Source of the DNA: Aurantibacillus circumpalustris
Lineage (GTDB): Bacteria > Bacteroidota > Bacteroidia > B-17B0 > Aurantibacillaceae
Assembly: GCF_029625215.1 (NCBI RefSeq)
Contig: NZ_CP121197.1
Location: forward strand, 4,030,001 to 4,094,000
Length of the DNA: 64,000 nucleotides
Reading direction: 5' to 3'
Within the stretch, counting starts at the first letter, position 1. The number at the start of each line of letters is the position of its first letter. This document shows positions 22,533-34,231 of the stretch, one piece after another. The notes below the pieces were generated by a model. The model saw only the letters and a program-made list of their open reading frames with translations, made no database searches and was not told the origin of the DNA. The position numbers were made by a program, and so were the translations under genes.

Positions 22533-24863
22533 CTAGTTCTTAATAAAAAACCAGGTACCTCCTTCATCGTCTAAATCTTTTATTCTTCCAAATTTAGGAT
22601 TTTGTCCGCCGTTTTTAGAAAGTGTGTAAGTTACCTTTTTTACAATTTTATCAATGGAGATGCATGATTCTGAATTATTGTTTAGTGATGATACCAAACC
22701 TCTGCTGAAATAAGAATTATCGGCAGCAAGCTCAAAACCCGCTGAAGTAAACACTTGTGCTGACCTGGACCGAGTAAGTTCTTTATTATCACATTTTTTC
22801 TCCTCGTCATTAGAACCTCTCATGGCCATTAAAAAAGTAGCACCCGATTCACAGGCATCTGTAATTACAAGTAAGTGTGTAAGTTTATTTGTATAGGATT
22901 GCATGGCCACACGTAAAGCGTTAATGCCATAATAACTAAACTCGTCGTCTGATTTTCCATCAACCGGAATCCAATAACCTGTAGGACTTACATATTTACC
23001 ATGACCCGCATAATAGATCATTAGGGAAGTAACATTATTATTTTTAATCTCCTCGCGAAGTTCGATGGAAAAAAACTTATCCATTTCTACTTTACTTAGA
23101 TTTTTTTTGGTGATAATTTTCGTAATCTTATAATTAGCGAGCGCTGAAGTCATTGCTAGCACGTCTTTTGCTGGACCTTCTAAAGAAGAAAATTCATAGT
23201 ACTGACTGTTCTCAATAAAAACAACCCAGGTATTTCCCATAGGATTATTTTTCGTAGCGGTTACTCCATTCCTATTAAGTCGGTAGGTTTGAAGGTTTTC
23301 GTTGCCATGAATGTCTTTTACAGCAAGAGAAATTGTTTCTTTATTTTCGATTTTTAAATTGATAGTAAATTCTGGATTGAGTAAAGTATTATCAAAAGAA
23401 GCCAGCATTCCATCGAAGGTAACTGACGCGATTAAACTTGCATCTACAATTTTTCCTTTGATAAACAGATTTGTTCCGTCAAGTTCTAAATTTATTTCAT
23501 TCTCCAGCGTAGTAACCGGAACCTCAATTTTAATTTCAGGTTTATCCCTTTCAATTTTTTCAAATGCAAAGTGAACCAGTTCTGTATTATCATATATATC
23601 TGTTGCTTTGATATTTAAATATTCAGCTGATGCAACATCATCAATAATTATTTTGAATTCAGGATTTAAAGAATCTTTTACATAGTTAACGCGCCCGAAA
23701 CTTACATCTATATTTTTAATTAAACTTGCATCTTTTACTCTTCCAATTATAGTAAATTGGTTTTCTTCTAAAGTAATTTTTATAGTATTATTTTCAGCAA
23801 TAATCGAAGTGAGCTCTATTACAGGCTTATTACTTTCCTGTCCTAATTTAAAAATCTTAGCCTGCGCATTTGCAAGAACGTCGTCATTTACACCCGGAAA
23901 AAGGACCACTTTTTTATAATCCTTTATAGCTTCTTTTGGTTTTTGCACTTGCTCGTAGGCATAAGCTCTATCAATATACGTTTCTAAATCATTTTTGTTT
24001 TTAGCAAGTATCGTTGTATAGTCACTTATTGCATTATTAAACTGATCCATAGTTTCATAATATTTTGCTCTTTTTTTGTAATCACCAATATCAGAATCTA
24101 TCACTATTGCTTTGGTAATATCGTTTAAAGCATTTTGATAATCCAGTTTGCTAGCATAAATTGAGCTACGTGCAGATAAAGCACGAACGTTATTTTCATC
24201 CATACTAAGCAGTGCGTTGCAATTAACCATTGCCTCATCAAATTTTCTGAGCTTTTGAAGTACAAATACCAAATTACCCATAGCGGCAACGTTTTTCGCT
24301 TTGGCGTTAATTGATAATTTATAAAACTTCTCTGCTTCATTCCATTTATTTAAACTATCAAACATGAGCGCATGGTTAAAATAATGCTCGGCAGATTTTT
24401 CAATATCAATTGCCATTTGAGTAACTTCAAGACCAAAGTCAAAGGCTTTAACTTCCACGGTTACTTTAATTTCTGCCTCTATCGCCTCTTTGTATGACTT
24501 ATCAATATGTAAGGCTTTCCTAAGCATGTCATCGGCCTCAATATAATTTTGAAGGTCTATAAGAACTCTTCCAGCATTATAACAACTTGTTTTTTCGGTT
24601 GGTTTAAGATCGTAAACCTTCTTAAAATCATCAACAGCTTCTTGTTTTTTCCCCGTTTTCTCATAACAAAAGGCACGATGGGTGTAGGCTTTTATATATA
24701 CAGGATCTAATTCAATGGCCTTTGAATATTCCAAAATAGCCAAGTCAAACTCTCCTGTTTTCTCCAATTTTTCACCCGCATCAAATAGTTTTTTTGAGGA
24801 CTGCGAAAAAATAGAAAGAGAAAAGGAGACAAGGGTAGCAATTATAAGCAACCTAAAGGTCAT
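22533..24863 (-). CDS. secreted TPR protein with C-terminal caspase-like (C14) protease domain
   Basis: 776 residues from the chosen ATG at 24863. A signal peptide (LLIIATLVSFSLSIFSQ) is followed by about nine TPR repeats (about 25-330; AILEYSKAIELDPVYIKAYT is the clearest) and two or three beta-strand regions (about 340-500). The caspase-like domain starts near residue 520. The catalytic dyad is His in MIYYAGHGK (about 621) and Cys in VITDACESG (about 671). Bacterial caspase-like proteins take part in regulated proteolysis, defence or programmed death. An in-frame TTG 33 nt upstream is not used as start because it forms the -33 box of the promoter. A T9SS tail is absent. Confidence 0.88.
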   Translation of the reverse strand: MTFRLLIIATLVSFSLSIFSQSSKKLFDAGEKLEKTGEFDLAILEYSKAIELDPVYIKAYTHRAFCYEKTGKKQEAVDDFKKVYDLKPTEKTSCYNAGRVLIDLQNYIEADDMLRKALHIDKSYKEAIEAEIKVTVEVKAFDFGLEVTQMAIDIEKSAEHYFNHALMFDSLNKWNEAEKFYKLSINAKAKNVAAMGNLVFVLQKLRKFDEAMVNCNALLSMDENNVRALSARSSIYASKLDYQNALNDITKAIVIDSDIGDYKKRAKYYETMDQFNNAISDYTTILAKNKNDLETYIDRAYAYEQVQKPKEAIKDYKKVVLFPGVNDDVLANAQAKIFKLGQESNKPVIELTSIIAENNTIKITLEENQFTIIGRVKDASLIKNIDVSFGRVNYVKDSLNPEFKIIIDDVASAEYLNIKATDIYDNTELVHFAFEKIERDKPEIKIEVPVTTLENEINLELDGTNLFIKGKIVDASLIASVTFDGMLASFDNTLLNPEFTINLKIENKETISLAVKDIHGNENLQTYRLNRNGVTATKNNPMGNTWVVFIENSQYYEFSSLEGPAKDVLAMTSALANYKITKIITKKNLSKVEMDKFFSIELREEIKNNNVTSLMIYYAGHGKYVSPTGYWIPVDGKSDDEFSYYGINALRVAMQSYTNKLTHLLVITDACESGATFLMAMRGSNDEEKKCDNKELTRSRSAQVFTSAGFELAADNSYFSRGLVSSLNNNSESCISIDKIVKKVTYTLSKNGGQNPKFGRIKDLDDEGGTWFFIKN

Positions 24864-24866
24864 GGG

Positions 24867-24896
24867 CAAATATAAATAAAGTTTGATAAATATCAA
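24867..24896 (-). promoter_or_regulatory. full -33/-7 promoter immediately before the caspase ATG
   Basis: TTG (24896-24894), a 19-nt spacer and TATATTTG (24874-24867) reproduce the Bacteroidota promoter exactly. The -7 box ends 3 nt before the ATG at 24863, so transcription should start at or next to the A of the ATG, predicting a leaderless or nearly leaderless mRNA. Confidence 0.65.
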
Positions 24897-25001
24897 TCAC
24901 TCGGTTTTTATTTAGGATCAACCATTCTCTTTCAAAAGGTGTCTATTAGAGCCTTAAAACACATATAAGTTTTAGCTGGCCTCACTGAAAACAGCCATCC
25001 A

Positions 25002-25080
25002 CCTCACGGTTTCCGCAATTCTAACATTTCATTATTTACGGTGTTTTAAAACGAGCGCTGTTGCTGCAACTTTGTATCGT
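25002..25080 (+). promoter_or_regulatory. promoter/operator block A (copy 1 of a shared control region)
   Basis: Conserved blocks in order are CCTCACGGTTT (25002-25012), TTTCAT (25027-25032), GTGTTTT (25041-25047), GCTGTT (25057-25062), TGCAACTTTGT and TCGT (to 25080). The 41 nt at 25040-25080 match 25563-25603 at 28 positions without gaps. CAACTTTG is one base off the -7 consensus. CTGAAAA precedes both copies. It controls the 25110 gene. Confidence 0.6.
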
Positions 25081-25109
25081 ACTCTAGTATTCATTTAAAA
25101 ACAAATAAC

Positions 25110-25502
25110 ATGAAAAATTTAATGACCTTAATAGCAGTGGCTTCGATGTTGATCAGCTATAATGCTTTTGCTCAGACTACCGAGATAAGTTCGGTGATTT
25201 CTGTAAGTATATCAAACGAGGAGAACAGTCATAGTTTAATGTGGACAACCCAAAAAGAAGTCAACAGCAGCTACTTTATAGTGGAACGCTCGACAGACCA
25301 GGTAAACTATGTTACTATTAACAGAGTAAAGGCAGCTGGATATTCGCTTCTTAATAGAAGCTATGAGATTGAAGACACTGATGCAGATGCTAGTTTTTAT
25401 TATTACCGAGTAGTATTGGTAAGCATGGAGGGTGAAAGAACTGCTTCTATAGCAGTAAAAGCTTACGACGAGGTTGAACACAGCTTGGTGGCAGAAAAAT
25501 AG
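25110..25502 (+). CDS. small secreted fibronectin-III-like protein
   Basis: 130 residues. A signal peptide (LIAVASMLISYNAFAQ) is followed by one Fn3-like beta domain (about 30-120): LMWTTQKEVNSSYFIVERS, TDQVNYVTINRV, YEIEDTDADASFYYYRVVL. In Bacteroidota this module normally sits just before a T9SS sorting tail at the end of long secreted proteins; here it stands alone, and no YPNP tail follows. It could be a short exported binding protein or a cell-surface component. It shares control sequences with the next gene and lies upstream of the sensor-regulator pair. Confidence 0.65.
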   Translation: MKNLMTLIAVASMLISYNAFAQTTEISSVISVSISNEENSHSLMWTTQKEVNSSYFIVERSTDQVNYVTINRVKAAGYSLLNRSYEIEDTDADASFYYYRVVLVSMEGERTASIAVKAYDEVEHSLVAEK

Positions 25503-25523
25503 ACCTTCTGCTGAAAAACGAAC

Positions 25524-25603
25524 CCTCACGGTTTTCAGGGATAAGCGTTTTTCATGGTTAATAGTGTTTTTTGAGTCTAGCTGTTAGTGCAATTTTGTCT
25601 CGT
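25524..25603 (+). promoter_or_regulatory. promoter/operator block B (copy 2 of the shared control region)
   Basis: Same block order as copy 1: CCTCACGGTTT (25524-25534), TTTCAT (25550-25555), GTGTTTT (25564-25570), GCTGTT (25580-25585), TGCAATTTTGT and TCGT. Within it, CGGTTTTCAGGG (25529) and CGTTTTTCATGG (25546) form a direct repeat with 17-nt spacing, suggesting tandem regulator sites. It lies ahead of the 25693 gene and, by continuity, the kinase and regulator genes. Confidence 0.6.
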
Positions 25604-25692
25604 AATAATTTGCAGTACTAAGTAAATATTCTTAATTCTGTTTACTATTACAAACTGAGAACTTATTTATTAATCATTAAAAAATTAAAATC

Positions 25693-26127
25693 ATGGGACA
25701 TGGAGAAGTACTAAACGTAGTAAATCTTAAAGTAATTAGCTGGGATAAGGAATCGCAAGCTGACGGAACATATAATTACACTTATACCTTTTCGGTCACT
25801 CTGCTTGAAGATTATCCGGATCCTAGTTTTGGTTCGAATAATCTCAGTGCTGTTATAGCACAAGACGACAATAGCGATCCAGACAAAGTACATTACGAAT
25901 TATTCGTATCCTATGAGCACGACATCCCTACAACATTGCCTCCAGGAGGATTTCATGAACATACTGAAGGGTACAAGACCCATCACCTCACCTATATCGA
26001 TTATTCAAATAATCTAGATATCAATAAAGGTGCCGTTACTTTTATGGGTTCAAATTTCGATGCCCAAGGAAAAAAAGTACGCGCTAAAAGTAGCACTAAT
26101 GTCGGACAACCACTAGATCAAAAGTAA
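25693..26127 (+). CDS. orphan 144-residue protein
   Basis: No recognised family. There is no signal peptide or membrane segment, although the N-terminus (MGHGEVLNVVNLKVISW) is typical of a soluble beta-strand protein. Aromatic and acidic stretches (YNYTYTFSVTLLEDYPD, DDNSDPDKVHYELFVSYEH) alternate with loops, and a histidine-rich piece GGFHEHTEGYKTHHLTY could bind metal. The composition suggests an all-beta domain. It lies 29 nt upstream of the TPR histidine kinase and downstream of control block B, so it may belong to that regulatory operon or be its target. Confidence 0.6.
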   Translation: MGHGEVLNVVNLKVISWDKESQADGTYNYTYTFSVTLLEDYPDPSFGSNNLSAVIAQDDNSDPDKVHYELFVSYEHDIPTTLPPGGFHEHTEGYKTHHLTYIDYSNNLDINKGAVTFMGSNFDAQGKKVRAKSSTNVGQPLDQK

Positions 26128-26156
26128 AAGCTGTTGCTAAAGAGTACCCTATATCT

Positions 26157-28097
26157 ATGCGTAAAATAAATTATAAAACATTTTTATTATCAATCTGCTG
26201 TTTTGTTTCAATAGCCTATGCGCAGAATATAAAGGATAGTCTTTACATAGAGAGTATTCTGACGAAATCTAAGACTCTTGACTCCGGTAATCTTGATTCT
26301 TCCAGAATACTTAATGCAGAAGCTTTTTTACTTTCAAAAAAATATAATTACAAAAGAGGGATTTGTAAATCATTAAGTCTTTCGGGAAACCATCTTTATC
26401 TTCGTGGAAGTTATGATTCGGCCAAGTTGTCACTTTTCGAAGCCATAAACCTTGGAACAAAAATAAACACTCCTACTATTGTAGCTGAATCATACAAGTA
26501 CCTTGGGTCAGTTTACGAATCAATTGGTAAAAAAGATTCCGCCTTCTTTTTATTCTATAAGGCATTAAAATTGTTTGAAGAGAATCGCGATTCTCTGGGT
26601 ATTAGTGAGGTATTCACAGTACTAGCGCAATCAAGTTTTAATTATGGAGAGACGATTCAAGCCTTGAATTTTTTATCAAAAGCAGAAAAAATAGTTAGCA
26701 GGAATCAGGATTTATCTGCACTATCCATTATCTATAGAACGTACGGTATGATTTATTACCAAAGTGATAAGTACAACAAAGCGATTCACTATTTATTGAA
26801 AAGCAAAGCAATAGATGAATCACTTAGGAATGAAAGAGCGGTTGCAATCAATTTAAATATACTTGGTGCTTGCTACGAGGCTTTGGACGAAGATGCAGAA
26901 GCAATGGACTGTTACAAAAGCGCTTTGAACTATTATAATGTTCATGGCTTAAAAAATTGGGCGGGCGAAATTCTTTTTAACATAGGTGTATTTTTTTATA
27001 ACCGCGACAAAGAAGATAGTGCTGTACATTATTTTGAAAAAGCTCTGTTAGCGTTGGAAGTGCAAGAAAGCAATGCAATGGTATTAAAAGTTTTACCCCT
27101 TCTCTCTGAATCACACAGCATATTAGGGAATTACCGCAGGGCCTACGAAACGCATGTAAAATATTCAAAACTCAATGAAAGCTTATTAAACAAAGAAAAA
27201 ATAAAACAAATTGCGGAAGTACGCACCAAGTATGAAACAGAAAAAAAAGAACAACAAATAACACTTCTTAATGAACAGAATAAAAGTAAAGCTGCTCAAC
27301 GTAATTTTTTTATTGCCGGAAGCATCATATTAATACTGATTCTGTTTGGCCTTAGTTTTTATTATAGACAACGTAATAAACTTGCACGAAAGAATGAACA
27401 AATTGCGAAGGAAAAAATCTCAAGCCTTTTAAAAGAACAAGAAATTAAATCTTACGACGCCATGATTGAAGGCCAGGAAGAGGAGCGAAAACGTATTGCG
27501 ACTGATCTACACGACAGGCTTGGAAGCATGCTTTCGACTGTAAAAATATTATTCGGAAACCTTAACGAGAAAATAGATATTCATCAGGCGGACAATCAGA
27601 AACAGTACGATAAAGCCAGCAGTCTTTTAGATGAAGCTGTTTTGGAAGTACGGCGCATCGCTCAAAATTTAAGTACCGGCATGGTGATTACTTTTGGATT
27701 AATTCCAGCACTCGAGGAATTGTGCGAAAGTATAACAGAAAGCAAGATTCTGAAATGTAAATTTTTGTGTTACGGAATTGAAGAACGGATGGAACAACAT
27801 ATTGAGATCGGCGTTTTTAGAATGATGCAGGAAATCGTGAACAATGTATTAAAACACGCAAAAGCAAAAAATCTTACCATTCAATTAAACAGAACTGAAG
27901 ATTCTATTGCAGTTACAGTTGAAGACAATGGTGTTGGCTTTGATTTGAAAGAGAAAAGTAAGGGCATGGGTTTAAAAAATTTGGAAGGGCGTGCCTATAA
28001 AATGGGCGGTACTTACAATATAGACTCTAAGCCCGGACATGGAACCATATCAATAATCGAAATACCTTTAACACATGATACGAGTACTAATAGCTGA
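26157..28097 (+). CDS. TPR-containing sensor histidine kinase (HisKA_3 type)
   Basis: 646 residues. A signal peptide (FLLSICCFVSIAYAQ) and a string of TPR repeats (about 70-345, e.g. YDSAKLSLFEAINLG, YNKAIHYLLKSKAID) form the sensor. A coiled region precedes one transmembrane helix (FFIAGSIILILILFGLSFYY, about 382-401). The kinase core is of the NarX/DesK class: EERKRIATDLHDRLGSML with phospho-His about 452, then EIVNNVLKHAKAKN, VEDNGVGFD and GMGLKNLEGRA for ATP binding. Ligand is unknown. Its last 23 nt overlap the start of the response regulator, so the pair is translationally coupled. Confidence 0.92.
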   Translation: MRKINYKTFLLSICCFVSIAYAQNIKDSLYIESILTKSKTLDSGNLDSSRILNAEAFLLSKKYNYKRGICKSLSLSGNHLYLRGSYDSAKLSLFEAINLGTKINTPTIVAESYKYLGSVYESIGKKDSAFFLFYKALKLFEENRDSLGISEVFTVLAQSSFNYGETIQALNFLSKAEKIVSRNQDLSALSIIYRTYGMIYYQSDKYNKAIHYLLKSKAIDESLRNERAVAINLNILGACYEALDEDAEAMDCYKSALNYYNVHGLKNWAGEILFNIGVFFYNRDKEDSAVHYFEKALLALEVQESNAMVLKVLPLLSESHSILGNYRRAYETHVKYSKLNESLLNKEKIKQIAEVRTKYETEKKEQQITLLNEQNKSKAAQRNFFIAGSIILILILFGLSFYYRQRNKLARKNEQIAKEKISSLLKEQEIKSYDAMIEGQEEERKRIATDLHDRLGSMLSTVKILFGNLNEKIDIHQADNQKQYDKASSLLDEAVLEVRRIAQNLSTGMVITFGLIPALEELCESITESKILKCKFLCYGIEERMEQHIEIGVFRMMQEIVNNVLKHAKAKNLTIQLNRTEDSIAVTVEDNGVGFDLKEKSKGMGLKNLEGRAYKMGGTYNIDSKPGHGTISIIEIPLTHDTSTNS

Positions 28098-28716
28098 CGA
28101 TCATCAAATGTTCATAGATGGGATAAAATCTCTGCTCGTGAATAATAAACGCATCCAAATTATTGGCGAAGCTCATAACGGTTTTGAGGTTACCGAATTT
28201 GTAAACAAACAAAAGGTAGATCTTATTTTATTGGACATGAGTATGCCGGTGATGGACGGCATGGAAGCGATGAAAATTGTAAAACAAAAATTTCCCGACC
28301 TTAAAATAATTATGTTGACCATGTTTAGTACCCGCGACCAGATTGAAAAATTGTTGCGCGCTGGGGCTGATGGTTATGTTTTGAAAAACACTGGCAAGGA
28401 AGAATTAGTACTTGCCATTGAAACAGTGATGAAAGGCGAATCTTTTTTCAGCAAGGAAGTAACTGAACAGATTATGGCTGGCATTCAGAAGAAAAAGGTG
28501 GCGAATAGAAACGCCATGATTGTAGAACTAACAGAACGTGAAAAGGATGTACTCAAATTGATTGTAAAAGAGCATACCACACAGGAGATAGCGGAGAAGC
28601 TGTTTATTAGCACCAATACTGTGGAAACGCATAGGAAGAATTTGGTAAGTAAATTGAACGTAAGAAATGTAGCTGGCTTAGTAAAATACGCTTTGCAGAA
28701 TGGACTGGATGAGTAA
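28075..28716 (+). CDS. NarL/FixJ-type response regulator
   Basis: 213 residues. The receiver has VLIADDH, phospho-acceptor Asp54 in LILLDMSMPVMDG, MLTMFS and VLKNTG. The C-terminal LuxR-type helix-turn-helix reads LTEREKDVLKLIVKEHTT, QEIAEKLFISTNTVETH, RKNLVSKLNV. It is the cognate partner of the overlapping TPR kinase. The duplicated control blocks upstream of 25110 and 25693 are plausible binding sites, because tandem sites near promoters suit this family; this is inference. Confidence 0.93.
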   Translation: MIRVLIADDHQMFIDGIKSLLVNNKRIQIIGEAHNGFEVTEFVNKQKVDLILLDMSMPVMDGMEAMKIVKQKFPDLKIIMLTMFSTRDQIEKLLRAGADGYVLKNTGKEELVLAIETVMKGESFFSKEVTEQIMAGIQKKKVANRNAMIVELTEREKDVLKLIVKEHTTQEIAEKLFISTNTVETHRKNLVSKLNVRNVAGLVKYALQNGLDE

Positions 28717-28954: not shown

Positions 28955-31900
28955 ATGAAAAATAAAATAAATACAATTTCCACGGGTGCGTTTAGCACTC
29001 AAATGAATGCCAGTAAAAGGAAAAATTTAATGGGTATGACGAAACTCTTCTTACTTACCTTCTCTCTTTTTGGCCTTGCTGCAAACGCCCAATGCACGCG
29101 ATCATCGCAAACCGTGGGCGTGGCAGGATTTTCACCAGGCCAAGTCGATTATACCTCCATAGCCATAGACGGCAGCGGGACGCCTTATGTGGTGTACTCC
29201 GATGTTGCCAACAGCAGCAAAGCCACCGTAAAAAAATTTAACGGCAGTGCTTGGGTTACTGTTGGCTCGGCAGGCTTTTCGACAGGGCAAGCCGCTTACA
29301 CTGCCATAGCCATAGACGGCAGCGGTACGCCTTATGTGGTGTACTCCGATGTTGCCAACAGCAGCAAAGCCACCGTGATGAAATTTAACGGCAGTGCTTG
29401 GGTTACTGTTGGCTCGGCAGGCTTTTCGGCAGGGCAAGCCGCTTACACTTCCATAGCCATTGACGGCAGCGGTACGCCTTATGTAGCATATTCAGACTTT
29501 AGCAACAACCTATATGCCACCGTGATGAAATTTAACGGCAGCTCCTGGGTACTTGTTGGCTCACAGGGATTTTCGGGTGCGCAAGCCTATTACACTTCCA
29601 TAGCCATAAACGGCAGCGGAACACCTTATGTGGTATTCAAAGACTGGGGCATCGTTGGCAAGGCTTCTGTGATGCAATTTAATGGCAGCTCCTGGGTACT
29701 TGTTGGCTCACAGGGATTTTCGGGTGCGGAATCTGATTACACAAATATAGCCATAGATGGCGGCGGTACGCCTTATGTGGTATATCTTGACAAGACCTAC
29801 TACAAAGCCAACGTAATGAAATTTAACGGCAGTACTTGGGTTAACGTTGGCTCTACAAATTTTTCAGCAGGAATTGCCTATTACACCCAGATAGCTATAG
29901 ACGGCAGCGGAACGCCTTATGTTGTTTACTCGGACAATACCAACAGCGACAAAGCTACTGTAATGAAATTTAACGGCAGTACTTGGGTTAACGTTAGCTC
30001 GGCAGGTTTTTCAGCAGGAACTGCCTATTACACTTCCATAGCCATTGACGGCAGCGGAACGCCTTATGTGGTGTATTCAGATTATGGCAACAGCCAAAAA
30101 GCTACTGTTGTGAATTTTCCTTACACATTGCCACCTGTAAGCGTAAACAGCGCAACAATATGTTCTGGCAAGAGCGCTACGCTTACGCCAGGTGGCGCAA
30201 GTACCTATACCATTACGGGTGGAGCGTTTACGGTAAGTCCGGGTACAACAACTTCTTATACGGTTACTGGCTCAGATGTTAGTGGTTGCACCAATACTGC
30301 TGTGGCAACGGTTTCGGTAAAAGCAAGCCCAACAGTTTCAATTAACAGCGCAACAATATGTTCAGGCCAACCGGTAACACTTACTCCAGGAGGAGCAAGT
30401 ACTTATACTATTAGCGGTGGTACGTTTATAGTGAGTCCTGTGAACACCAGTACTTATTCGGTTACGGGCACGGCAACAAATGCTTGCGTATCGTCAAACA
30501 CGGCGGTGGCAAGTGTATTGGTAAACACCACGCCCACCGTGGTAATAACAAACACAACAATATGTTCTGGTAATTCATTTAGTATAGTTCCAACTGGAGC
30601 CATTAGCTATACTTATCAAGGGGGTAGCGCTTTGGTAAGTCCACTGACCACAACAAATTATACGGTTCAAGGCTCAAGCGGTTCAGGTTGTGTTTCTAAT
30701 GTTGTTACTTGTAGCGTTACGGTAAACGCTTCACCAAATGTTACTATTACACCAAGCAGCACCGTTATTTGTTCTGCCAATACTGTTTCACTGACAGCAG
30801 GTGGGGCGGTCAGTTATTTATGGAGCAATAACAGTACCACTTTAAGCACAGCTAATCCTTTTATAACCGGTCCAAATGCAAATTTTACACGAACGGTTAC
30901 CGGAACTGCCGTTAATGGTTGCACGAATCAGGCCGTGCAAACTATCTTGGTGAATACTTCGCCAACTGTAAGTATAGCTTTTACGGGTAGCGTTATTTGC
31001 TCAGGCAAAACAAGCACCCTTACCGCCAGCGGTGCTAATACTTATGTATGGGTAAGCGGTCCTTCTGCGGCAGCAAATCCTGTGAGCCCAAATTCAACTA
31101 CTATTTATACTGTTACCGGAACTAATTCAGCTGGAGGCTGCACTGATGTTGCTACTCAAAATATTATAGTAAATCCATCACCGACTGTCAATATCTCTGT
31201 CACAAACGGTACGATTTGTTCGGGCAATACCACCACACTTACAGCCAGTGGTGCCAACTCCTATGTATGGACAAGCGGACCTTCCACTCCAGCAAATGCA
31301 GTGAATCCTACTTCCACAACAATTTATACTGTTACTGGAACCAACACAGTTGGTAGTTGTACAAATACAGCTACACAAAACATTGTAGTGAATGCTACAC
31401 CAACCCTTAACATTGCTTATACGAGCAGTGTGATTTGCTCAGGCAAAACAACAACACTTACGGCCAGTGGCGCCAATACTTACGCTTGGGCAAGCGGACC
31501 TTCCACAGCTGCAAATCCTGTGAGTCCAAACGCAAACGCAACTTATACCGTAACAGGCACTAACACAGCAGGCAGTTGTACAAGCACAGCTACACAAAGT
31601 GTTGCAGTGAATGCTTCACCAACTCTTAACATTGCTTTTACAAGCAGCGTGATTTGTTCAAGTAAAACAACTACTCTCACTGCCAGCGGTGCTAATTCCT
31701 ATGTATGGGCAAGCGGACCTTCAACAGCTTCAAGCGCTGTGAGTCCAAACGCTACAACCATTTATACTGTAACTGGAACAAACACCATTGGCAGTTGTAC
31801 AAACGCCGCAACGCAGAGTGTTGTCGTTAATCCTACACCGACGCTTAACATTGCCTATACTAGCAGTGTGATTTGTTTAGGTAATACCACAACCCTCACA

Positions 31901-34231
31901 GCAAGTGGTGCAAATACTTTTGTTTGGGCTAGCGGTCCTTCAACGGCTGCAAATCCTGTGAATCCAACCGCAACAACAATATACACTGTTACCGGAACTA
32001 ACACAGCAGGTAGTTGTACAAATACCGCCACACAGAGTATTGTAGTAAATAACTTGCCAACAGTTAGCATTGTAGCAAGCAGCACAGTAGTGTGTTCTGT
32101 TAATTCAGCCACACTAACGGCCGGTGGGGCCGCAACTTACACCTGGAGTAATGCTTTAGGTAATAATACAATTGTCACAGTATCTTCAACCAGCAACTAT
32201 ACACGAACCGTAATAGGATCTGCTGCAAATGGTTGTACTAATTCTGCTTCACAAAGCATGGTGGTTAATGCTACTCCGACCATAAACATTGCAGCAACTA
32301 ATACGGTTATTTGTTCGGGTAACACGACAACACTCACAGCGAGTGGCGCGAATACCTTCTCTTGGTCAAACGCGATTACTTCATCAACAAATGTGGTGAG
32401 TCCAATCGTTACAACGGTTTATAACATTTCAGGAACTACCACCGCATCGGGTTGTACCAATACTGCATTACAAACTATTTCAGTAAATGCTACACCAGTT
32501 TTAACAGTTACTCCTGTGTCATCCACAATTTGTTCTGGAGACGCAAGTAATCTTTTAGCCAGTGGAGCAATAAATTATACCTGGACGAATGGTCCTTTAA
32601 CGGCAGGGTTTGCAGCTAATCCAACCACTACAAGCGTTTATACCGTAACAGGTGAAACAGCAGGTTGTGAAGGACTTGCTTCGCTTACGGTTAACGTGAA
32701 TCAAAATCCAACACTAACGGTTAACAGCGGTACGGTTTGTACTGGAAATAGTTTTACTATTAGTGCAAGTGGTGCAAATTCTTACTCTTGGAGCAATGGT
32801 GCAAGTAGTTCAAGTATTAACGTTTCCCCGCCAACAAATACCGTATACATAGTAATAGGTACGGGTATTAATAATTGTACGAGTACTGCCACTTCAACAC
32901 TCGTTGTAGCAAACAATCTTGTTGTAAACATTGTTCCAAGTAGCACAGCAGTTTGTGCAGGAGCCTCTGTGACTTTAACAGCAAACGGAGGAAATACATT
33001 CTTATGGAACAATTCAACTACAAGTTCAAGTATTGTATTGAATCCAACGACTGCAAGTACGTATTCTGTTATTGGTTCGTCAGGGCCTTCGTGCAGTAAT
33101 ACTGCTTCTCAATTAATTTCGATTAACCCTTCCCCTACTCTTACAGTTAGCGGTATTAATTTTATTTGTTCGGGTGTTACTAGTATATTAACAGCAGGTG
33201 GAGCAAATTCTTATACCTGGAATACCGGAGCCAATACCACTACAATCAGCGTTACACCAGCTGTAACATCAACCTATACTGTTACTGGAAGTAACTCATT
33301 TAATTGCACAAATACGGCACAGTATCAAGTGCAAACCACACCAGTTGTGACACCAACAATTTGTTTAGTGACTGTGGACAGTGCCAGTATTAATAATGAA
33401 ATTTATTGGGATAAGGCTTCTTATCCTGAAGCAGATACGTTTATTGTTTATAGAGAGTCGAGTGCTGCGTTTTATTCTGTGATTGCGCGACTATCAAAAA
33501 ACGCGCTTGGAAGTTATGTGGATACTAACCGCAGTATTGGCCCAAACAATGGTAATCCAAATTATTCTTCTTACAAATACAAAATTCAGTTCAGAGATAC
33601 TTGCGGGAATTTAAGTCAGATCAGTGATTACCACAAAACCATTTTTATTCAGGATAACCAAACTGGAAATTTTACTTGGAATTACTATAACATTGGCGGA
33701 GTTGATCAACAAAGTGTAAATTATGTTTTATACAGACGTAATGTATTATCTGGCGTTACAACAAGTGTTGGTGGAACTTCTGGCACAGCCTTCACGGATC
33801 CACAATACAGCGCGCTTGCAACAGCTGGCAATGTAAAATGGTTTACTGGCATGAGTGGCTTTTCCTGCGATCCGAATGCAAGGCTTTCCAGCACTACCGC
33901 ACAAACAATCAGTACTACAAAAAGCAACGTAAGTAATGAAAAACAATTTCCAGTAGTAACCATTGGTTTAAATGAAAACAGCTCCAAAATTGCTCAACTA
34001 AGTGTTTATCCAAACCCAGTTGAAAATCAATTAACACTCGATTTTGGTAAGACTGAAGTGAAGTTGAATCTTGAATTGATTGATGTTACAGGACGTTTGA
34101 TTAGTAAAGAAGTGATTAACGGAAATAAATTTTATTTAAGTACAAGTGATTTAACCAATGGAATTTATTTTATAAAGCTTTACGAGAGTCACAAACTATT
34201 AAACACGCAAAAGATTATTGTGCAGCATTAA
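28955..34231 (+). CDS. giant T9SS-secreted protein A: seven-repeat head plus Ig-like stalk
   Basis: 1758 residues. The start is uncertain: ATG 28955 gives a long polar leader, whereas the internal Met28 gives a compact signal peptide (TKLFLLTFSLFGLAANAQ). Seven repeats of about 49 residues follow (GFSAGQAAYTSIAIDGSGT, PYVVYSD, KATVMKFNGSAWVTVGS), a likely seven-bladed propeller. Fifteen Ig-like modules of about 75 residues come next, each with two cysteines (VICSGKTTTLTASGANTYV ... GSCTNTATQ), then two Fn3-like modules (IYWDKASYPEADTFIVYRES). The last 75 residues are a type A sorting domain (LSVYPNPVENQLTLDFG ... NGIYFIKL). The 3' half aligns gaplessly with protein B. Function is inferred as a surface-exposed adhesin or filament. 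Confidence 0.9.
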   Translation: MKNKINTISTGAFSTQMNASKRKNLMGMTKLFLLTFSLFGLAANAQCTRSSQTVGVAGFSPGQVDYTSIAIDGSGTPYVVYSDVANSSKATVKKFNGSAWVTVGSAGFSTGQAAYTAIAIDGSGTPYVVYSDVANSSKATVMKFNGSAWVTVGSAGFSAGQAAYTSIAIDGSGTPYVAYSDFSNNLYATVMKFNGSSWVLVGSQGFSGAQAYYTSIAINGSGTPYVVFKDWGIVGKASVMQFNGSSWVLVGSQGFSGAESDYTNIAIDGGGTPYVVYLDKTYYKANVMKFNGSTWVNVGSTNFSAGIAYYTQIAIDGSGTPYVVYSDNTNSDKATVMKFNGSTWVNVSSAGFSAGTAYYTSIAIDGSGTPYVVYSDYGNSQKATVVNFPYTLPPVSVNSATICSGKSATLTPGGASTYTITGGAFTVSPGTTTSYTVTGSDVSGCTNTAVATVSVKASPTVSINSATICSGQPVTLTPGGASTYTISGGTFIVSPVNTSTYSVTGTATNACVSSNTAVASVLVNTTPTVVITNTTICSGNSFSIVPTGAISYTYQGGSALVSPLTTTNYTVQGSSGSGCVSNVVTCSVTVNASPNVTITPSSTVICSANTVSLTAGGAVSYLWSNNSTTLSTANPFITGPNANFTRTVTGTAVNGCTNQAVQTILVNTSPTVSIAFTGSVICSGKTSTLTASGANTYVWVSGPSAAANPVSPNSTTIYTVTGTNSAGGCTDVATQNIIVNPSPTVNISVTNGTICSGNTTTLTASGANSYVWTSGPSTPANAVNPTSTTIYTVTGTNTVGSCTNTATQNIVVNATPTLNIAYTSSVICSGKTTTLTASGANTYAWASGPSTAANPVSPNANATYTVTGTNTAGSCTSTATQSVAVNASPTLNIAFTSSVICSSKTTTLTASGANSYVWASGPSTASSAVSPNATTIYTVTGTNTIGSCTNAATQSVVVNPTPTLNIAYTSSVICLGNTTTLTASGANTFVWASGPSTAANPVNPTATTIYTVTGTNTAGSCTNTATQSIVVNNLPTVSIVASSTVVCSVNSATLTAGGAATYTWSNALGNNTIVTVSSTSNYTRTVIGSAANGCTNSASQSMVVNATPTINIAATNTVICSGNTTTLTASGANTFSWSNAITSSTNVVSPIVTTVYNISGTTTASGCTNTALQTISVNATPVLTVTPVSSTICSGDASNLLASGAINYTWTNGPLTAGFAANPTTTSVYTVTGETAGCEGLASLTVNVNQNPTLTVNSGTVCTGNSFTISASGANSYSWSNGASSSSINVSPPTNTVYIVIGTGINNCTSTATSTLVVANNLVVNIVPSSTAVCAGASVTLTANGGNTFLWNNSTTSSSIVLNPTTASTYSVIGSSGPSCSNTASQLISINPSPTLTVSGINFICSGVTSILTAGGANSYTWNTGANTTTISVTPAVTSTYTVTGSNSFNCTNTAQYQVQTTPVVTPTICLVTVDSASINNEIYWDKASYPEADTFIVYRESSAAFYSVIARLSKNALGSYVDTNRSIGPNNGNPNYSSYKYKIQFRDTCGNLSQISDYHKTIFIQDNQTGNFTWNYYNIGGVDQQSVNYVLYRRNVLSGVTTSVGGTSGTAFTDPQYSALATAGNVKWFTGMSGFSCDPNARLSSTTAQTISTTKSNVSNEKQFPVVTIGLNENSSKIAQLSVYPNPVENQLTLDFGKTEVKLNLELIDVTGRLISKEVINGNKFYLSTSDLTNGIYFIKLYESHKLLNTQKIIVQH

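Follow-up and report, generated by a model that had tools for sequence, protein, structure and literature searches.

Twin promoter-like blocks with paired palindromic sites at a TPR-kinase/NarL-type regulator locus of Aurantibacillus circumpalustris, and their recurrence in other Bacteroidota

The window analyzed here is a stretch of 64,000 nucleotides of Aurantibacillus circumpalustris (contig NZ_CP121197.1, positions 4,030,001 to 4,094,000 of the forward strand), and all coordinates are counted from its first letter. Within the window, two similar upstream blocks, referred to as copy 1 and copy 2, precede gene 1 and gene 2, and gene 2 is followed by the genes of a TPR histidine kinase and a NarL-type response regulator. 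The features of the locus are as follows.

25004..25018, + strand: putative operator site A of copy 1, TCACGGTTTCCGCAA, placed by alignment and geometry; one T shorter than in relatives
25029..25043, + strand: putative operator site B of copy 1, TCATTATTTACGGTG, placed by alignment and geometry; 25 nt after A
25067..25074, + strand: -7 box of copy 1, CAACTTTG; 38 nt after the start of B
25110..25502, + strand: gene 1, 130 aa, with a signal-peptide-like start; predicted Ig/Fn3-like beta-sandwich
25526..25541, + strand: putative operator site A of copy 2, TCACGGTTTTCAGGGA, placed by alignment and geometry
25552..25566, + strand: putative operator site B of copy 2, TCATGGTTAATAGTG, placed by alignment and geometry; 26 nt after A
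25590..25597, + strand: -7 box of copy 2, CAATTTTG; 38 nt after the start of B
25693..26127, + strand: gene 2, 144 aa, no recognised family
26157..28097, + strand: TPR histidine kinase (TPR, HisKA_3, HATPase_c)
28075..28716, + strand: NarL-type response regulator (Response_reg, GerE), proposed activator of both copies
28609..28641, + strand: codons of regulator residues 179-189 (STNTVETHRKN), the start of the recognition helix, including Asn181

The kinase matched TPR_12 (7e-17), HisKA_3 (1.7e-10) and HATPase_c (1.2e-12), all above the Pfam cut-offs, and the regulator, whose gene adjoins that of the kinase, matched Response_reg (3.5e-27) and GerE (2.3e-18); by domains and adjacency, the two form a TPR histidine kinase/NarL-family two-component system. 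A gap of 29 nt separates gene 2 from the kinase gene, and the kinase and regulator reading frames overlap by 23 nt. The gene 1 product is predicted to be an Ig/Fn3-like beta-sandwich, based on a structure model (mean pLDDT 65.9) with Foldseek matches of modest score to Ig/Fn3 folds, and it shares 39-47% identity with proteins in three congeneric genomes. For gene 2, no signal peptide was visible by eye, no family scored above cut-off, and comparison with the gene 2-like proteins of relatives gave no convincing homology (hhalign probability 2%). Judged by eye, the products of genes 1 and 2 are unlike each other, as originally predicted. The locus is flanked by a gene on the - strand, divergent from gene 1 (22533-24896), for a protein that combines TPRs with a caspase-like domain (Peptidase_C14, 1.6e-14), and by a gene directly after the regulator (28955-34231) for a 1758-aa secreted-type repeat protein whose end resembles a sorting domain by eye.

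The original prediction had listed words shared in the same order by the regions upstream of genes 1 and 2, and all of them were found in place: CCTCACGGTTT is present at 25002 and 25524, GTGTTTT at 25041 and 25564, and TGCAAyTTTGTnTCGTA at 25065 and 25588. The 41-nt ends of these regions (25041-25081 and 25564-25604) do align without a gap, with 29 identities instead of the 28 that had been counted, and none of 1000 base-shuffled upstream pairs reached this number (best 28, mean 22.7). Furthermore, gapped local alignment of the upstream regions gave a score of 62, compared to at most 55 in 2000 shuffled pairs, and the composite pattern CACGGTTTN{35,65}GCAAYTTTG had two matches in the single-contig genome of 4.6 Mb and none in the reversed control. 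By itself, CCTCACGGTTTTC (up to two mismatches) was not enriched in the genome, with 82 matches versus 98 in the reversed control, and was ruled out as a regulon marker. The direct repeat that had been pointed out in copy 2, CGGTTTTCAGGG / CGTTTTTCATGG, exists (25529 and 25546; 17 nt apart); however, it is not the repeat that relatives keep, which consists of TCACGG (25526) and TCATGG (25552), 26 nt apart.

Alignment of the blocks revealed that site A reads TC(A/C)C(G/T)GTTTTCCGTGA in the better-kept members, and that the site is an imperfect 16-bp palindrome with TCACGG-N4-CCGTGA as its best-kept form. Site B, TCA(T/G/C)GG...GTG, lies 26 nt after A (25 nt in copy 1), and is followed by GTGTTTT and then by the -7 box. 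The comparison of geometry covered 11 promoters (four congeneric genomes contributed seven, and three other genomes four), with the -7 boxes chosen by eye and the congeneric distances partly selected by the search profiles. The A-to-B distance was 26 nt in eight promoters, 25 in one and 23 in two, with the value of 26 in L155, L164 and G022:C73 fixed beforehand by the search pattern; the distance from B to the -7 box, which the pattern left free for L155, L164, L181 and L182, was 38 nt in eight and 39 nt in three. Another place, G062:C344, was left out because it is cut by the end of its contig. The -7 box ended in TTTG in 10/11 promoters, the exception being G022:C73 (TAGTATTG), and in relatives it ranged from the consensus forms TAGTTTTG and TATCTTTG to CACCTTTG.

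Sigma-A promoters of Flavobacteria carry TTG at -33, whereas the -33 place of the blocks reads GTGTTT, with no TTG. Activators that touch RNA polymerase are usually centred near -42 or -68. The accessible text of a study on Flavobacterium psychrophilum gives TAnnTTTG as the -7 consensus and maps the box at -12 to -5 (PMC9723704); both copies depart from this consensus, because they keep its TTTG but begin with CA in place of TA (CAACTTTG, CAATTTTG), and the box is thus off consensus as predicted. With the -7 box placed at -12 to -5, site B would be centred near -42 and site A near -68, and the predicted transcription starts would fall near 25079 (copy 1) and 25602 (copy 2). Since the -7 box is off consensus and TTG is absent at -33, such a promoter should need help.

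A search for gene 1 in 60 relatives returned G022 (3.4e-26) and G009 (4.9e-24) as the best two genomes, with the next at 8.4e-13. In both, the block precedes gene 1, which is followed by another reading frame at the place of gene 2 and by the start of a TPR kinase (the full kinase in G022). A profile, R1, was built from four blocks (the window pair, G022 and G009) and used to search 40 congeneric genomes. One strong new place was found, G062:C83 (8.6e-13), below which lie gene 1, a reading frame at the gene 2 place and the contig end, together with a truncated second place in the same genome (2.3e-6). Two weak places also kept the geometry, a divergent copy in G009 (0.0046) and G022:C73 (0.014); G032:C44 (0.001) and G060:C21 (0.003) scored better than the G009 divergent copy but were rejected, as both are inside long reading frames. 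Over the 72-nt block, the first promoters of the four genomes (copy 1 of the window, G022, G009 and G062) had a mean pairwise identity of 0.74, whereas the preceding 40 nt reached 0.25 and the following 30 nt 0.49, indicating that the block is a conserved promoter. No block was found between gene 1 and the second reading frame in G022, G009 or G062, and copy 2 is an extra block that, among the four genomes, is present only in the window genome. The single palindrome (at most one mismatch) was not enriched in the 40 congeneric genomes (18 places listed, with a higher sum in the reversed-control columns), and the strict motif GTGTTTTN{6,12}GCTGTTGCNGCAAYTTTG, found in 3/40 of them, was set aside. 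Altogether, the twin blocks are real and are more than a local duplication.

Outside the genus, 84,980 species genomes were scanned with the pattern CGGTTTTCCGTGAN10TCANGG, which yielded 19 stretches, 11 from Bacteroidota, three of these being the known G022/G062 contigs; later counts leave out the eight non-Bacteroidota stretches and L158. At four loci from Flavobacteriaceae or Polaribacter (L155, L156, L169 and L172), two or three tandem sites stand directly before a NarL-type regulator gene, and a TPR kinase gene comes after it, with a lipoprotein gene between the two in three of the loci. A spacing-free exact pattern, applied to 395 genomes from the class and 397 from a single family, matched only in G170 and G724, with no control match among the matches listed, and exact tandem sites are therefore rare; in each of these two genomes, one cluster precedes a regulator-(lipoprotein)-TPR kinase operon. 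In total, six regulator-kinase operons outside the genus have TCACGG sites directly before the regulator gene. A second profile, R2, matched in 24 other genomes, and seven of these loci were read: L128 and L152, both from G170, are true tandem operator sequences, and L126, L127, L129, L130 and L154 were discarded as lying inside long reading frames. In a member of the Cyclobacteriaceae (L166), the sites precede the gene of a 1643-aa secreted-type protein; no -7 box was found at the expected distance, and this locus was left out of the 11 promoters. TPR-kinase/NarL pairs were frequent among the genomes looked at.

The regulators of these operons were also compared. In the recognition helix, Asn directly precedes TVET in 8/8 operator-linked regulators, which represent about two lineages, and in 0/34 other NarL-type matches of the genus (30 loci and 4 second matches); congeneric sisters carry Tyr at this position. 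The co-occurrence of operator and regulator is partly linkage, because both are in one operon. When the operator label was mapped on a maximum-likelihood tree built from 38 regulators, 2 changes sufficed to explain it, versus 7.4 for shuffled labels (0/500 as low), and both operator-linked groups fall in one 11-row clade (94/92), joined by three regulators without the label. Within the genus, a single close full-length relative of the window regulator was found, in G009 (74%; next 52%); in G022, the gene of a similar regulator is cut off by the contig end within its first 61 codons. Over the full length, the window regulator is closer to its congeneric sisters (identity 0.47-0.51) than to the Flavobacteriaceae regulators (0.36-0.40). 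The order is reversed in the DNA-binding domain, with 0.45-0.53 for the sisters versus 0.51-0.60 for the operator-linked Flavobacteriaceae, in a comparison for which regulator extraction was incomplete (3/21 further loci). The G021 regulator, however, has a DNA-binding domain 0.75 identical to that of the window regulator, yet lacks a TCACGG operator before its kinase operon; a palindrome downstream of this regulator (L218) departs from the geometry and was set aside.

From the sequences, conservation, geometry and recurrence computed here, we infer binding, activation, the sign of the feedback and the start sites as follows. Each block would be an activator-dependent sigma-A promoter with two operator sites, B at the -33 region and A further upstream. 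The TPR kinase would sense a signal and the NarL-type regulator would be phosphorylated, whereupon regulator dimers would occupy both sites and recruit RNA polymerase; copy 1 would drive gene 1, and copy 2 would drive gene 2, the kinase and the regulator, forming a positive feedback loop. NarL-family dimers activate at palindromes. The blocks look like promoters that need an activator, in agreement with the original prediction. The adjacent regulator, which had been named as the candidate to bind both copies, is still the best one, because beyond the genus, too, TPR-kinase/NarL operons are preceded by this operator, which also clusters in the regulator tree. The operon's own regulator thus probably switches the operon on through paired sites at a fixed distance from the promoter box, and we consider this scheme of twin promoters under one regulator likely as a whole.

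It is rather unlikely, but deserves weighing, that the sites belong to another transcription factor encoded elsewhere and that the operon's own regulator binds a different site, such as ACCCCAT..ATGGGT. At six promoters (L156, L161, L169, L172, L179 and L180), the B place holds ACCCCATAAATGGGTATTG, a palindrome of this ACCCCAT..ATGGGT type, with TCACGG sites located upstream of it; three congeneric sister systems, one with ACCCCATTATTGGGTATTG and two with partial forms, all lack TCACGG sites. The B place can therefore hold another palindrome, and the combination of both palindromes in six promoters, the sister systems without TCACGG sites and the operators before genes that do not adjoin a regulator would all suit an outside factor. 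However, no ACCCCAT palindrome is present in the window blocks or in the related congeneric blocks, the TCACGG sites of the six operons beyond the genus stand directly before the regulator gene, and the recognition-helix Asn goes with the operator, all of which favor the operon's own regulator. As a separate observation, ACCCCAT..ATGGGTATTG, running into the -33 TTG, was seen before several TPR-kinase/NarL operons and other genes (L215:3580-3667, L216 and L217, and the six promoters named above), perhaps serving as operator for a sister group of regulators.

It is very improbable that copy 2 is a decaying duplicate without function and that copy 1 is the only working promoter. Such decay would fit the lack of a block between gene 1 and gene 2 in three relatives, as well as the right half of copy 2, which departs from the palindrome; nevertheless, copy 2 keeps TCACGG, TCATGG, GTGTTTT, the distances of 26 and 38 nt and TTTG, over the block it is nearer to the G022 promoter (0.72) than it is to copy 1 (0.63), and the lost base is in copy 1, not copy 2. 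Finally, it is scarcely credible that terminator hairpins or a dispersed repeat account for the palindromes: although TCACGG-TTTT-CCGTGA could fold as a 6-bp stem with a 4-nt loop and copy 2 starts 22 nt past the stop of gene 1, a terminator scan of 24850-26200 found none in either block, the upstream gene is divergent in both the window and G022, and the composite has only two genome copies, unlike a REP-like repeat.

A genome-wide regulon of small secreted proteins, as originally suggested, was not borne out: only two copies were found in the genome, and no signal peptide is visible by eye in gene 2. No third copy was found in the window genome by the composite pattern or by either profile: R2 gave none beyond the two at E 0.02, and the next best R1 match had an E of 0.11. 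In G009, the divergent copy (L119:1743-2448) precedes the gene of a 153-aa protein matching PF05526 (6.9e-22), and in G022, the second target (C73; L122:1955-3136) lies downstream of a C39-like peptidase gene and encodes a protein that belongs to no known family. PF05526 is the Rhodococcus equi virulence-associated protein family, which we did not expect in Bacteroidota. The leaders of these G022 (L122) and G009 (L119:1900-1990) targets look alike by eye, AAAAGCC.(A/T)ATGAGTA.GAAAAAAATA, whereas the proteins do not. Further targets in G170 are a 70-aa HTH_3 protein (L180:3546-3908) and a lipoprotein-like protein of more than 470 aa (L128:1500-3038) with the mixed site ACCCCATTTTCCGTGATTG. At L182:2739-2935 (G724) and L164:2460-2655, - strand, tandem sites and a TAnnTTTG box lie between a TonB-type receptor gene and a convergent fabH-like gene; the units are at most ~130 nt long and end, by eye, in a terminator-like hairpin, and this short unit is a candidate small RNA or tiny peptide gene. 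The putative operators of L164 and L166 are far from any regulator gene seen. Overall, the target sets are small and mixed, and not simply small secreted proteins.

More tentatively, and with somewhat less than even confidence, a subgroup of TPR-kinase/NarL systems across Bacteroidota might share one undescribed operator code, consisting of tandem TCACGG-N4-CCGTGA sites with the proximal site 38-39 nt before the -7 box and an Asn-marked recognition helix, each system amplifying itself and driving a few rapidly evolving surface or secreted proteins, plus a short RNA in two of the genomes. If true, operators would be predictable from sequence for many orphan two-component systems. The conserved site of fixed geometry provides a testable operator, a short target list and a candidate specificity residue, making the signal and function of TPR-kinase/NarL systems approachable with reporters and binding assays.

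VraR and NarL operators differ from TCACGG-N4-CCGTGA. Alignments with VraR (5.9e-37) and NarL (1.1e-30) cover almost all of the window regulator; however, its Asn181 aligns with Lys in VraR and with Ser in NarL. The best NCBIfam match of both window proteins was MctS/MctR, at 119.3 bits for the kinase and 188.7 bits for the regulator, and the pair are not members of these families because the scores are below the equivalog cut-offs (700 and 300, respectively). In the literature searched, mostly papers outside subscription, no published operator of this kind was found, and the three papers, out of 5.39 million, that contain operator words were all unrelated by title. The FimS model matches kinase residues 276-424, but with 58 bits versus an NCBIfam equivalog cut-off of 600, and the available text of PMC1974823 names no FimR operator sequence, the terms 'binding site' and 'consensus' being absent from it. 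Nevertheless, FimS/FimR of Porphyromonas gingivalis is the nearest studied system found: like the window pair, it is a sensor kinase and response regulator of Bacteroidota, and according to that same text FimR binds and activates the mfa1 promoter directly (PMC1974823).
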